Shown piece by piece: positions 9,485 through 48,130 of a DNA stretch of 56,281 bases. Within the stretch, counting starts at the first letter, position 1; the number at the start of each line of letters is the position of its first letter. Position numbers and translations under genes: made by a program. Below the pieces are notes generated by a model. The model ran no database searches and was not told the origin of the DNA. It was given only the letters and a program-made list of their open reading frames with translations. Source of the stretch: Cetobacterium somerae ATCC BAA-474 (lineage in GTDB: Bacteria > Fusobacteriota > Fusobacteriia > Fusobacteriales > Fusobacteriaceae); contig NZ_KI518119.1 of NCBI RefSeq assembly GCF_000479045.1, positions 1 through 56,281 on the forward strand, written 5' to 3'.

Positions 9485-9502
9485 TAATTAAATAATATTT
9501 TA

Positions 9503-9578
9503 AACTACTAGGGGTGCCCTTTGGCTGAGACTTACTCTTAGAACCTGATCTAGTTAATACTAGCGTAGGGAAGTAGTT
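9503..9578 (+). promoter_or_regulatory. TPP (THI-box) riboswitch aptamer
   Basis: The THI-box order is intact: GGGGTGCC at 9511-9518, GGCTGAGA at 9523-9530, GAACCTGATC at 9541-9550 and GCGTAGGGAAG at 9563-9573. The closing P1 stem pairs AACTAC with GTAGTT. It lies ahead of tenA-thiZXY and is expected to lower their transcription when thiamine diphosphate is plentiful. Confidence 0.95.
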
Positions 9579-9610
9579 AATTATCACTTTTATTTTATAA
9601 TTGTGTATAT

Positions 9611-22000: not shown

Positions 22001-22038
22001 AAACTCTCATTTCAACTATGTTAGCTTAAAATAATCCA

Positions 22039-22202
22039 CGATAGCACAACACCAATTTGGTGACAGTTACATAAATATTCTTTATGTACCCAGCTTAAAT
22101 TTTTTAGTAGAAAAACTTAAACTTCGGCAAATTTTCCTTTTAACAAACATCTTTGATCTACTAATCTCAGTTTATTTACTAATAAAATTTGCAACCTCTA
22201 TC
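22039..22202 (-). promoter_or_regulatory. Lysine (L-box) riboswitch
   Basis: Reading the minus strand, the L-box landmarks occur in order: GATAGAGGTTGC at the 5' end, AGTAG, TTTGCCGAAG, AAGCTGGGTAC, ACTGTCAC and a closing GCTATCG. The P1 stem pairs GATAG with CTATC. It is about 164 bases long, the usual size, and precedes lysC-asd-aminotransferase. Confidence 0.92.
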
Positions 22203-22220
22203 AAAATATTAATTTAAGGC

Positions 22221-22249
22221 AGAATATCACATTTTTTTTCAAATGTCAA
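22221..22249 (-). promoter_or_regulatory. Promoter of the lysine operon
   Basis: TTGACA, a 17-base spacer and TATTCT on the minus strand. The argG stop codon TGA (22246-22248) is part of the -35 hexamer, so the promoter overlaps the end of the upstream operon. Confidence 0.8.
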
Positions 22250-23448
22250 AAGTTTTTTCTTAAAAGTGCTTCTATTTTAATCGGTAATCCAAAAAGATTT
22301 ATAAATCCTTCTGCATCTTTTTGATTATAAACACTATCTTTTTCAAAAGTTGAATACTCCTCTGAATATAATGTAAATGGAGATGTCGTTCCTGCTAAAA
22401 TAATATTTCCTTTATATAATTTTAGCTTTACTTCCCCCGTCACGAACTCTTGAGTTACATCTACAAAAGCTGTTATAGCTTTTCTTAAAGTTGTAAACCA
22501 TTGACCATTATAGACTAATTTTGAAAAATCATGTGATAGTTTTATTTTTTCTTGATACGTATCTTTATCTAAACACAATCTTTCTAATTCTTCATGAGCA
22601 AAAAATAAAATTGTTCCTCCTGGAGTTTCATAAACTCCTCTTGATTTCATTCCAACCAATCTATTTTCAACCATATCTAAAACACCAATCCCATGATTTC
22701 CACCAATTTTATTTAATTGTTTTATAATTTCTACTCCACTCATTTTTTCTCCATTTATTGCAACAGGAACTCCTTTTACAAATTCAATATTTATGTACTC
22801 AGATTTTTCATTTGCTACTTCTAGAGTCTTAACCCATTGTAAAACATTCTCATAGTTAGGCTCTTTTGAAGGACATTCTAAGTCAAACCCTTCATGACTT
22901 ACATGAAATAAATTCTCATCTCTACTATAAGGAGATTTTTTATGAAATGGAAGTGTAATCCCATTTTTTTCTAGATATTCAATCTCTTCCTCTCTTGATT
23001 TAATATCCCAAATTCTCCAAGGAGCTATTATTTTCAAAGATGGATCCAAAGCTTTTATAGCTAATTCAAATCTTACTTGATCATTTCCCTTACCCGTTGC
23101 TCCATGAGCTATATATTTCGCCCCTTCTATATGGGCCACCTCAACTAAAGCTTTTCCAATAACTGGTCTTGCCATTGATGTTCCTAGCAAATATTTATTT
23201 TCATAAATAGCACCTGCTTTTAATGTTGGAAATATATATTCTTCTACAAATTCATGAACTTTATCTACCAAATAAAATTTACTTGCACCTGTTAAATATG
23301 CTTTTTCTTCAATTGCTTTAAAATCCTCTGTTTGTCCTACGTTTACTGCCACTGCAATAACATCATAATCATAATTCTCCTTCAGCCACGGAATTATAAC
23401 TGATGTATCTAATCCTCCTGAATATGCTAAAATAACCTTTTCCTTCAT
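22246..23448 (-). CDS. argG: Argininosuccinate synthase
   Basis: Joins citrulline and aspartate with ATP to give argininosuccinate. The N-type ATP pyrophosphatase loop AYSGGLDTS is at 8-16, followed by [14 protein letters not shown] and YSRDENLFH. Length 400 is standard. It follows the binding-protein gene by 10 bases in an operon headed by an Arg-codon leader peptide. argH and other arg genes are not in the window. No terminator separates it from the lysine riboswitch. Confidence 0.95.
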
Positions 23449-23458
23449 CTCTCTCCTC

Positions 23459-24172
23459 CTAATTAAAATGTTTTATTATTAATTCATCATAAATACCCTC
23501 TGCTTTTATCTCTTCCAAAGCTTTATTTACTTTTTTAATAAGATTTTCATTATTTTTTTCTGCTGCTATTGCATATTTTTCAACTTCACTATCTATTTCT
23601 ATTATTTTTAAACCTTTATTTTTTGCCACATAACTTTGAGCTGGAGCTGAATCTAATATCATTGCATCAATATTTCCACCTTTTAAAGCCATAATAGAAG
23701 ATGGTGCTGAATTGTACTGAACTTTGTTAACTCCTTGAATTTTAGATATTATTAAGTCCCCTGTGTATCCAAGTACCACTCCTACTTTTTTATTTTTTAA
23801 TGAATCCATATTTATTATAGTACCTTCATTTTCTGGAACTATAATAACTTGATTAGCTACAAAGTAATCATTTGAAAAATTTACAAACTTCTCTCTTTCT
23901 TTTGTTACTGTCATTCCTGCAATTATTAAATCTATTTTATTTGTTTGAAGTGCTGGTAATAATCCATCAAAAGCTATATTCTTTATTTTTATCTCTTTTC
24001 CAATTTTTTCACCAATTTTATTTATTAAATCAATATCAAATCCTATAATCTCCCCATTTTCCATATACTCAAAAGGTGCAAACTCAGCATTTGTTCCAAC
24101 ATATAAAACTTCTTTTGATAATACAATTGCTCCCATTAAAATAAATAATAAAATTCCTAATATTTTTTTCAT
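23459..24172 (-). CDS. Amino-acid ABC transporter substrate-binding protein (arginine-type)
   Basis: Periplasmic solute-binding protein (237 residues) of family 3. A signal peptide of about 19 residues ([19 protein letters not shown]) is followed by [33 protein letters not shown] and [19 protein letters not shown], the typical polar amino-acid binding segments. No lipobox cysteine is visible. The operon partner argG and the Arg-rich leader suggest arginine or ornithine/citrulline. The ATPase and permease genes are absent from the window. Confidence 0.85.
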
Positions 24173-24198: not shown

Positions 24199-24229
24199 TA
24201 AAAAAAGCCAGTGCTTTAAAACACTGGCT
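24199..24229 (-). terminator. Attenuator terminator of the arg leader
   Basis: Minus-strand stem AGCCAGTG / CACTGGCT and seven Ts, between the 31-residue leader ORF and the binding-protein gene. It lies before, not after, the genes, which marks it as a regulatory terminator. Confidence 0.85.
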
Positions 24230-24267
24230 CAAATAATATAAATCTATAGAATAATAAAAAAATTAAA

Positions 24268-24363
24268 CTATAATAAAATACCTGAGATTGCTTTCTTGGC
24301 ACACAAAAATTCTATTTTTTTGTTATAGTTATTGTGTGTCCTTAAAACTCTTCTCATAGTCAT
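24268..24363 (-). CDS. Leader peptide with clustered Arg codons (candidate arginine attenuator)
   Basis: A 31-codon ORF starts 6 bases after a GGAGG site. Its peptide begins MTMRRVLRTHNN: three Arg codons (AGA, AGA, AGG) fall within five codons. Just after the third Arg codon the sequence can form a hairpin, CACACAA (24338-24332) with TTGTGTG (24306-24300) plus GG/CC, so a ribosome stalled at the Arg codons would block it. A strong terminator follows. This is the layout of ribosome-mediated attenuation by arginine supply. Function is inferred; no family match is claimed. Confidence 0.65.
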   Translation of the reverse strand: MTMRRVLRTHNNYNKKIEFLCAKKAISGILL

Positions 24364-24394
24364 TTTATTTCCTCCTATTTTTTTATTTGAAATG

Positions 24395-24424
24395 ATAATA
24401 GCAAATTTAATCCCTTATTGTCAA
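24395..24424 (-). promoter_or_regulatory. Promoter of the arg leader-argG operon
   Basis: TTGACA and TATTAT with an 18-base spacer on the minus strand, 32 bases before the leader ATG. Confidence 0.7.
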
Positions 24425-24512: not shown

Positions 24513-25631
24513 ATGAACTTAAACAAATTCTTACTTATTAATCTTTTTAGTAAATTAAAATCAGAATCTCTTTTTTTAATAGCAACTTTTTTTGCTATTA
24601 TCACAAGTTTTATTATTCTTCCTAAGTTTTCATATATTGATACACATGTATTAATGATTCTTTTTAACCTAATGGTTGTAGTAGAACTTTATAAAAAAGA
24701 AAATGTTTTGGATTTTATAGCTATTAACTTTTTAAAAAAATATAATAGTCAAAGAATTATATGTGCTGCATTAATTATTTTGGTTTTTTTCTTTAGCATG
24801 TTTCTAACTAATGATGTTGCTCTTATAACTTTTATTCCATTAACTATTATAATTGGAAAGAAATCTAATTTTTCAACTTTAAAAATAGTTATTTTAGAAA
24901 CTATTGCAGCCAACTTAGGAAGTGCACTAACGCCTATGGGGAGTCCTCAAAATATCTATTTATATTCTAAATTTGCTCCAGCTCCAATTGAATTTTTTAA
25001 AATTACTTTTGGTATATCTACCATTGGCCTTGTTATTTTATTACTTGTTAATTTTTTTACTCCTAAAGAGGAGTTAATTTTTGAACTTGAAACTCCTATA
25101 TTTAAAAAAAATATCAATGTTTTTGTTTCAACAGCTATATTTATCTCCGTTTTGTTAAGTATATTCTTTAAACTTCCAATTATTTATATCACAATTTTTA
25201 ATATTGGGTATTTAACTTATAAAAAAGAAAATATTTTTCAAAAAATAGATTGGATTCTTTTAGCTACTTTTATTAGCTTTTTCATTTTTGTTGGAAACTT
25301 ATCAAATATTGAATTAATAAGATCCTGGATGTTTAATTTATTATCTGAATCAACGCAAGTTTATTTCACAGGGATTATTCTAAGTCAATTTATAAGTAAT
25401 GTTCCTGCTGCAATTTTAATATCTGAATTTACAACTAAATGGCAACCTCTTTTACTAGGAGTTAATATCGGTGGTCTTGGAACTTTGATTGCTTCTTTAG
25501 CTAGTTTAATTTCATATAAACTTTATATTAGTGAATTTCCAGAAGAAAAAAGAAAGTTTTTTATTCTTTTTTCTATTTTAAATTTTTCTATTTTAATTCT
25601 TATGGGAAGCTTATTTGCATTCTTTATTTAA
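24513..25631 (+). CDS. SLC13/ArsB-NhaD superfamily ion transporter
   Basis: Membrane protein of 372 residues with about ten hydrophobic helices. FLTNDVALITFIPLTI and the ANLGSALTPMGSPQNIYLYS loop are signature segments of the ArsB/NhaD/CitM ion-transporter superfamily (NDVALI and the GxxxTPxGxPQN turn). Substrate could be a carboxylate, arsenite or Na+/H+; the sequence does not decide. It is shorter than most members (~420). Single-gene unit with promoter and terminator. Confidence 0.82.
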   Translation: MNLNKFLLINLFSKLKSESLFLIATFFAIITSFIILPKFSYIDTHVLMILFNLMVVVELYKKENVLDFIAINFLKKYNSQRIICAALIILVFFFSMFLTNDVALITFIPLTIIIGKKSNFSTLKIVILETIAANLGSALTPMGSPQNIYLYSKFAPAPIEFFKITFGISTIGLVILLLVNFFTPKEELIFELETPIFKKNINVFVSTAIFISVLLSIFFKLPIIYITIFNIGYLTYKKENIFQKIDWILLATFISFFIFVGNLSNIELIRSWMFNLLSESTQVYFTGIILSQFISNVPAAILISEFTTKWQPLLLGVNIGGLGTLIASLASLISYKLYISEFPEEKRKFFILFSILNFSILILMGSLFAFFI

Positions 25632-32419: not shown

Positions 32420-32473
32420 AAAATTAAATTTAAAATATTTAACATATTTTAAAAAATTATAGTATAAGCTCTT

Positions 32474-32539
32474 CCCATAGCGTCCTGATTTAAGGTTAGG
32501 ACGTAGAAACTTTTGGACCATATTACCAAAATATATGAG
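32474..32539 (-). promoter_or_regulatory. Purine riboswitch 1 (guanine type)
   Basis: Minus strand: P1 CTCATA / TATGGG, P2 TTTTGG / CCAAAA with loop TAATATGGT, the invariant AGTTTCTACG junction, P3 CGTCCT / AGGACG with a CCTTAAAT loop, then GCTATGGG. The discriminating base before TATGGG is C, which indicates guanine/hypoxanthine rather than adenine. Confidence 0.92.
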
Positions 32540-32627
32540 TAAACTTTTTTATTTTAATAATACCATATTTGTATTTAAACTTCAATATTCTTGTGAAAAA
32601 TTATCTATTATTTTTTTTGTTTTATAT

Positions 32628-45852: not shown

Positions 45853-45956
45853 CTTTTTTTGAAAAAATATTTTTATTTTTATTTTAACTATAATTTTTTT
45901 GTTATTTTTTTAACAATATCTTGCACAAAAAAGAATTTCTTGATATTATTTATTTA

Positions 45957-46021
45957 GCTCATATATACCTCAAATACGGTGAGGAGTCTCTACAATCAAC
46001 CTTAAATTGATTACTATGGCT
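45957..46021 (+). promoter_or_regulatory. Purine riboswitch 2 (guanine type)
   Basis: Plus strand: P1 TCATA / TATGG (short), P2 CCTC / GAGG with loop AAATACGGT, junction AGTCTCTACA, P3 AATCAA / TTGATT with loop CCTTAAA, and ACTATGG. The base before TATGG is C. No U-tract hairpin follows before the nucleosidase gene; GTAGAG at 46051-46056 is complementary to the junction CTCTAC and may give the alternative fold. Confidence 0.85.
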
Positions 46022-46093
46022 TATTAATATAAAAGTTAATAACTATTTATGTAGAGTTTTGGGTATACTTTATTTAGGAGGCAACACAAAACT

Positions 46094-47870: not shown

Positions 47871-47954
47871 AAAAATAAAAACCTCCAATATTGATTTAAT
47901 CCATAATTTATATGAACTTAAATAAAAATTGAAAGTTTTCAACTTTAAAATAAG

Positions 47955-48017
47955 CCCATAGTAAGTTATTTACGGTAACTTGTAGAGACGTTTCACCATA
48001 TTTGAAACATATATAGG
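47955..48017 (-). promoter_or_regulatory. Purine riboswitch 3 (guanine type)
   Basis: Minus strand: P1 CCTATA / TATGGG, P2 GTTTCA / TGAAAC with loop AATATGG, junction CGTCTCTACA, P3 AAGTTA / TAACTT with loop CCGTAAA, and ACTATGGG. C before TATGGG indicates guanine. A weak A/T-rich hairpin (AAAGTTGAAA / TTTCAATTTT) near 47930 may be its terminator. Confidence 0.88.
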
Positions 48018-48130
48018 ATTTGTTATTATTATATATTATATTTATAAAAAAGTATAGTTTTTTAATATATTTCATTTTTGTTAAATTATTTTTATTTTAT
48101 TTATTTTTAAAAATATTTTTTTATTTTTTC

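Follow-up and report, generated by a model that had tools for sequence, protein, structure and literature searches.

The operon for an arginine-type binding protein and argininosuccinate synthase (argG) in the gut bacterium Cetobacterium somerae ATCC BAA-474 is likely preceded by a ribosome-mediated transcription attenuator that responds to the supply of arginyl-tRNA. This conclusion is based on computation only, without expression data. The leader lies on the minus strand of the window, which here means the whole stretch of 56,281 nucleotides that was analyzed (contig NZ_KI518119.1), at positions 24199-24424. Leaders of this type, 80 in total (49 non-redundant), were gathered before three kinds of arginine operon in Fusobacteriales.

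Architecture of the argG leader

The leader is headed by a sigma-70-type promoter (TTGACA-18-TATTAT, 24395..24424, on the minus strand like all leader features given below), with 11 of 12 matches and a TG before the -10 box; in the genus alignment, TTGACA and TG-TATnAT are conserved. The transcription start is expected near 24388, followed by a strong Shine-Dalgarno sequence, AGGAGG (24371..24376), and by the ORF for the leader peptide MTMRRVLRTHNNYNKKIEFLCAKKAISGILL, having 31 codons and a stop (24268..24363), whose translation is inferred. Its Arg codons 4 and 5 (AGA AGA, 24349..24354) and 8 (AGG, 24340..24342) are putatively regulatory. Between the leader ORF and the first structural gene sits a strong intrinsic terminator of 11 pairs, GAGCCAGTGTT-TTAA-AGCACTGGCTT with a T-run (24230-24199). 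The first gene (23459..24172, minus strand) encodes an arginine/lysine/ornithine-type ABC substrate-binding protein (TIGR01096, 158 bits), with this match and those to ArtI/ArtJ being below the cut-off, and is followed by argG, encoding argininosuccinate synthase (22246..23448, minus strand; NF001770, 587 bits, above cut-off).

In computed folds, segment 1, TGAGAAGAGTTTTAAGGACACACA (24333..24356), which contains the Arg codons, has TGTGTGCC, GAAAGC and TCTCA as its downstream partners, and segment 2, AGCAATCTCAGGTA (24279..24292, leader nt +71..+84), is the antiterminator strand. Segment 3, TATTTGAGCCAGTGTT (24220..24235), includes the 5' arm of the terminator and an upstream extension, and segment 4 (24199..24215) is the 3' arm AGCACTGGCTT with the T-run. 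The first hairpin, CACACA/TGTGTG, starts at the third Arg codon, the GG of AGG pairing with CC, and is extended by TGAGA at Arg codon 4, which pairs with TCTCA near the end of the ORF. A preliminary description of this locus had listed the ORF, its Shine-Dalgarno sequence, Arg codons, hairpin, terminator and genes, and all of these are present on the minus strand; the hairpin it gave as CACACAA/TTGTGTG also held, but the real one is longer than described, with TGAGA/TCTCA added.

Upstream, a divergent gene (24513-25631, plus strand) encodes an integral membrane transporter-like protein, for which NCBIfam gave only a weak match, to MamN. A lysine riboswitch (22034-22208, minus strand) is located just upstream of the aspartate kinase gene adjoining argG. 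Further riboswitches in the window are one for TPP and three for purine, at 9500-9588 (plus), 32458-32558 (minus), 47939-48036 (minus) and 45939-46036 (plus).

Conservation and distribution of the leader

The leader is present in all seven congeneric genomes having argG, with peptides that start as MTM[RK][RK]xLRT[QH], codons 4 and 5 being Lys in some relatives. It has 33 codons in six of the seven genomes and 31 in the window copy, which, compared with G002 and G006, is without one base in an A-run (about 24320, minus strand), so that its C-terminal frame is shifted. This loss is unique to the window among the seven genus leaders and leaves the Arg codons unaffected; it may be real or come from an assembly error.

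In other genera, a short ORF with a strong Shine-Dalgarno sequence and Arg codons, then a terminator, is found ahead of the binding protein-argG operon; in G047, the leader precedes argG alone, without the binding protein gene. The leader peptides have little in common across genera except an LRxR pattern, and the nucleotide sequence of the leader is not conserved between genera, whereas the in-frame Arg codons are. Terminator-like hairpins occur in the leaders of most relatives, and the terminator scan found none for two argC leaders (L283 and L284).

The initial pattern search (Shine-Dalgarno sequence, start codon and AGGnnnAGG) matched one leader in G052, ahead of an argC-argB-argD-like operon, and others in G047, G049 and G053, where the operons that follow are for arginine-type ABC transporters; except for argC, the gene names in these four genomes were read from translations, with no family search. 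Including these matches, 53 leaders were found across genera upstream of the orthologous permease and argC genes, with argC leaders also in a second family of the order. The genome of C. somerae itself has a second leader, MLFRNDRNRVQNNKNSIFYYILSNF (L302), before an arginine-type permease, with a terminator of -26.6. Another leader, MLKLRRRRIRRSRTKNNNSYLIQLA (L237, G053:C4:205443-205484, minus strand), has seven Arg codons in codons 2-13 and precedes an arginine-type transporter operon, with two successive terminator-like hairpins downstream of the leader.

A strict filter, requiring a Shine-Dalgarno sequence with a short ORF, at least two Arg in codons 2-13, at least two AGG, and a terminator, gave no match in 263,516 strand-bases of control loci. 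The window leader has one AGG and passes only a looser filter of at least one AGG, with which the 56-kb window, searched on both strands, yielded two matches: the target itself and an ORF that lies inside a larger gene. The second Arg-rich ORF of the window, at about 4680, was discounted because it is inside a larger gene, and the pattern matches at G041 and G042, where a long ORF begins, are chance, as are those within other coding sequences. The filter found no leader in the permease upstream regions of G003, G048 and several other genomes, and the regulon was sampled operon by operon, not exhaustively.

No leader was found directly upstream of argH in the C. somerae genome, where this gene is preceded by a transporter-like gene. 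The same argH (G000:C69:709-2136; L189, L191) lies behind a membrane-transport gene and away from argG. For argC, there was no match above the family cut-off in the genus; it is thus possible that arginine is made there only from citrulline.

Arginine codons and use of AGG

In codons 2-12 of the argG leaders (n = 27), 61 of 297 codons are for Arg, compared with 2.7% of the codons in the genes of the window, an enrichment of about 7-fold. AGG accounts for 48 of these 61 Arg codons, compared with 20 of 449 (4.5%) in the genes of the window, and occupies codon 8 in 26 of the 27 argG-type leaders, being instead at codon 7 in G038. The art-type and argC leaders (n = 53) have 175 Arg codons out of 631, 128 of them AGG. 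They were kept only if they had two or more Arg codons, which inflates their Arg density; AGG was not selected for. Taking all leaders, about one quarter of codons 2-13 are Arg codons, and about three quarters of those are AGG.

Over the 80 leaders, 176 AGG triplets are in the reading frame, as against 6 and 1 in the two others; AGG is therefore there as a codon, and an internal Shine-Dalgarno-like motif (AAGGA) was rejected by this count. The Arg filter favors frame 0 for the art-type and argC leaders; no such filter was used to gather the argG set. There is a gene for a dedicated tRNA-Arg(CCU) (L171). A tRNA-Arg gene with UCU was not seen in a draft tRNA search that gave only 28 loci.

Computed folding and the antiterminator

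The leader RNA folds with -46.4 kcal/mol, compared with -27.0 +/- 3.4 for shuffled sequences (z -5.7). In the stall scan, the transcript ended just before the 3' arm of the terminator, the bases covered by the ribosome were held unpaired and the partners of the 5' arm were computed, arm sequestration being the free-energy cost of opening this arm. When the ribosome occupies the Arg codons, the 5' arm is captured in most lineages by a strand located around +63 to +90; the corresponding strand of the G047 argG leader is further downstream. In the window, stalling at the Arg codons gives a computed pairing of AGCAATCTCAGGTA (24292-24279) with TATTTGAGCCAGTGTT (24235-24220), and without a ribosome there, segment 1 holds segment 2 through TGAGA with TCTCA and neighboring bases. 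A purely visual search for partners of the terminator core (CACTGGC) had missed the antiterminator, which instead pairs with the base of the 5' arm and the sequence upstream of it.

For 22 argG leaders, a ribosome at the Arg codons gave a mean arm sequestration of 5.2 kcal/mol, compared with 2.6 without a ribosome and 3.4 when it was at the stop codon, and the effect, averaged by position, fades around codons 13-17. Sequestration exceeded the ribosome-free value in 22/22 argG-type, 33/33 art-type and 16/18 argC-type leaders when the ribosome was placed at the Arg codons. Against dinucleotide shuffles, its mean z was +2.2 and positive in all 22 argG leaders, which are related to each other and hence are not 22 independent tests. 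Each lineage's own pairing of segment 2 with the arm was also better than with arms permuted among lineages (p = 0.003). The ensemble test with dinucleotide shuffles was used because RNAduplex with short arms gave only weak significance for single leaders. Over the leader set, then, the criterion of an antiterminator freed by a ribosome on the Arg codons is met. The same scan applied to E. coli controls peaked at the Thr codons of thrL, at the His codons of hisL and, weakly (2.6 kcal/mol), at the Trp codons of trpL.

Not all leaders support the switch to the same degree. The antiterminator of the window leader alone is not significant against shuffles (z 1.4, p 0.10), and in G006, nearly identical to the window, a substitution of TCTCA to TCTAA weakens segment 2. 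In two g1 leaders, those of G007 and G003, arm sequestration is higher with the ribosome at the stop codon than with it at the Arg codons; the argG leader of G047 has no effect in the whole-leader scan (0.1 in all states), and some argC-type leaders have no gain or a loss, in part because the automatic picking of terminators is crude (in L238, the wrong hairpin was chosen). At equilibrium of the full-length transcript with a stalled ribosome, the terminator still wins (P 0.74-0.90), which means that switching must be kinetic, the view also taken of the classical attenuators. Since the window leader is not significant by itself and the terminator wins at equilibrium, the claim rests on the leader set and on co-transcriptional folding.

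ArgR and known RNA families

The C. somerae genome had no match to ArgR (PF01316), the repressor that usually controls arginine genes, with 9 of 14 control genomes being positive. None of 96 Fusobacteriales genomes had a match above the cut-off, the only sub-threshold one being in G050. Two more distantly related genomes of the class differ: G097 had an ArgR match above the cut-off, and G012 did not. Outside the order, G097:C2:618-1247 is an open frame of 326 aa that matches the ArgR DNA-binding domain twice (73.5 and 68.8 bits) and may encode a tandem ArgR. At 24199-24424, no Rfam family, T-box included, matched at the gathering threshold; the other riboswitches of the window were detected.

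The preliminary description interpreted this locus as a candidate Arg leader-peptide attenuator, and the computation supports that interpretation, without bench data. It had no convincing antiterminator, and one has now been located, namely AGCAATCTCAGGTA with the 5' arm of the terminator. Two of the outcomes that had been named as refuting it were examined: lack of conservation of the leader ORF, which is itself refuted by the early Arg codons kept across genera (the rest of the peptide is not), and control by ArgR at an ARG box, which is not supported, the genome being without the ArgR gene. It had missed the same leader type before the arginine-type transporter operon of the same genome and before argC operons elsewhere, as well as the predominance of the rare AGG as the sensing codon.

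Proposed mechanism and alternative explanations

Here it is proposed that, with plentiful arginine, the ribosome would pass the Arg codons and segment 1 would pair with segment 2, leaving segment 3 free to form the terminator with segment 4 and turn off the binding protein-argG operon. With scarce arginine, the ribosome would stall at codons 4-8 and cover segment 1, and segment 2 would then pair with the 5' arm of the terminator ahead of the synthesis of the 3' arm, so that transcription would continue. The signal would be uncharged tRNA-Arg, perhaps the dedicated CCU tRNA reading AGG. The stalling, the read-through at low arginine and the nature of the signal are all inferred. A bolder reading, somewhat more likely than not, is that Fusobacteriales, with no ArgR detected, run an order-wide arginine regulon (argG, arginine-type transporter and argC operons) through separate leader-peptide attenuators, in which the rare AGG, decoded by a dedicated tRNA-Arg(CCU), has become established as the codon that gauges arginine charging most sensitively.

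Three other explanations were considered, and none of them seems at all probable. In a nascent-peptide sensor of the SpeFL/TnaC type, the peptide in the exit tunnel would bind arginine or ornithine and arrest the ribosome; short basic leader peptides before arginine genes and the nearly fixed Arg at codon 8 of the argG set would agree with this. However, such a sensor would have no cause to favor the rare AGG over AGA, whereas about three quarters of the leader Arg codons are AGG, and the 49 non-redundant peptides diverge apart from Arg, whereas the codon choice is conserved. A chain at codons 8-10 is also too short to fill the tunnel, and arrest induced by the metabolite would turn the operon on by arginine, the wrong direction for biosynthesis.

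It is likewise very improbable that the leader is a protein- or metabolite-binding RNA element with an incidental ORF. Its strong fold (z -5.7), which includes the ORF, is in favor; however, there is no Rfam match, the in-frame Arg codons are kept between genera while the sequence is not, and AGG is confined almost entirely to one frame (176/6/1). Very little also supports an ORF that is translated but senses the general speed of translation, with no specificity for arginine. The strong Shine-Dalgarno sequence would agree with it, as would the tendency of rare codons such as AGG to be read slowly; however, all three classes of downstream operon carry arginine-type genes, and Arg codons in the argG set are about seven times as frequent as in the genes of the window. 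The attenuator responding to arginyl-tRNA remains the preferred reading.

Comparison with known systems

A survey from 2010 stated that leader-peptide systems were previously known only from Proteobacteria and Actinobacteria, and added a histidine one in bacilli (PMC2965389); for Actinobacteria, another survey gives arginine T-boxes, not attenuators (PMC1262725). In the open-access literature searched, neither an arginine attenuator of biosynthetic operons nor leader-peptide attenuation in Fusobacteriota was found, which is no proof of novelty. The kind of mechanism is already known; within that literature, what seems to be new is that it serves arginine, occurs in this phylum, relies on AGG and apparently takes the place of ArgR. 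If true, the attenuator accounts for the regulation of arginine genes in Fusobacteriales without ArgR and would be a natural, repeated test that attenuators choose the synonymous codon whose tRNA discharges first. The idea of a first-discharged tRNA belongs to the theory of selective charging, and with about 80 leaders having one dominant codon, its prediction is directly testable.

The arginine T-boxes and the ArgR/AhrC repression of Firmicutes serve the same physiological purpose, unlike which the present system has no Rfam T-box match in the window and no ArgR gene in the genome. Closer in its sensing is rbfL of Staphylococcus aureus (PMC13009471), likewise a short leader containing AGA/AGG codons; when arginine is low, these are decoded slowly, which controls the gene downstream. 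In rbfL, however, low arginine blocks the translation initiation of a biofilm regulator, whereas here it would keep transcription from terminating ahead of arginine genes. The Arg codons of the leader ORF orf34/speFL of Salmonella and E. coli (PMC6386406) likewise sense the arginine level; however, that leader acts via Rho, an RNase G site and the RBS of the ornithine decarboxylase gene, in place of the intrinsic terminator found here, and rare and frequent Arg codons alike support its Arg response, compared with the AGG bias of the present leaders. The general design is that of the E. coli attenuators trpL, hisL, thrL, pheL, leuL and ilvL, having an ORF rich in codons for the end product, alternative 1:2, 2:3 and 3:4 pairing and a terminator before the operon. 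The Fusobacteriota leaders differ from these in the amino acid, arginine, in the phylum, in a sensing codon that is mostly the rare synonym AGG, and in that separate operons (argG, art-type transporter and argC) each carry their own copy.
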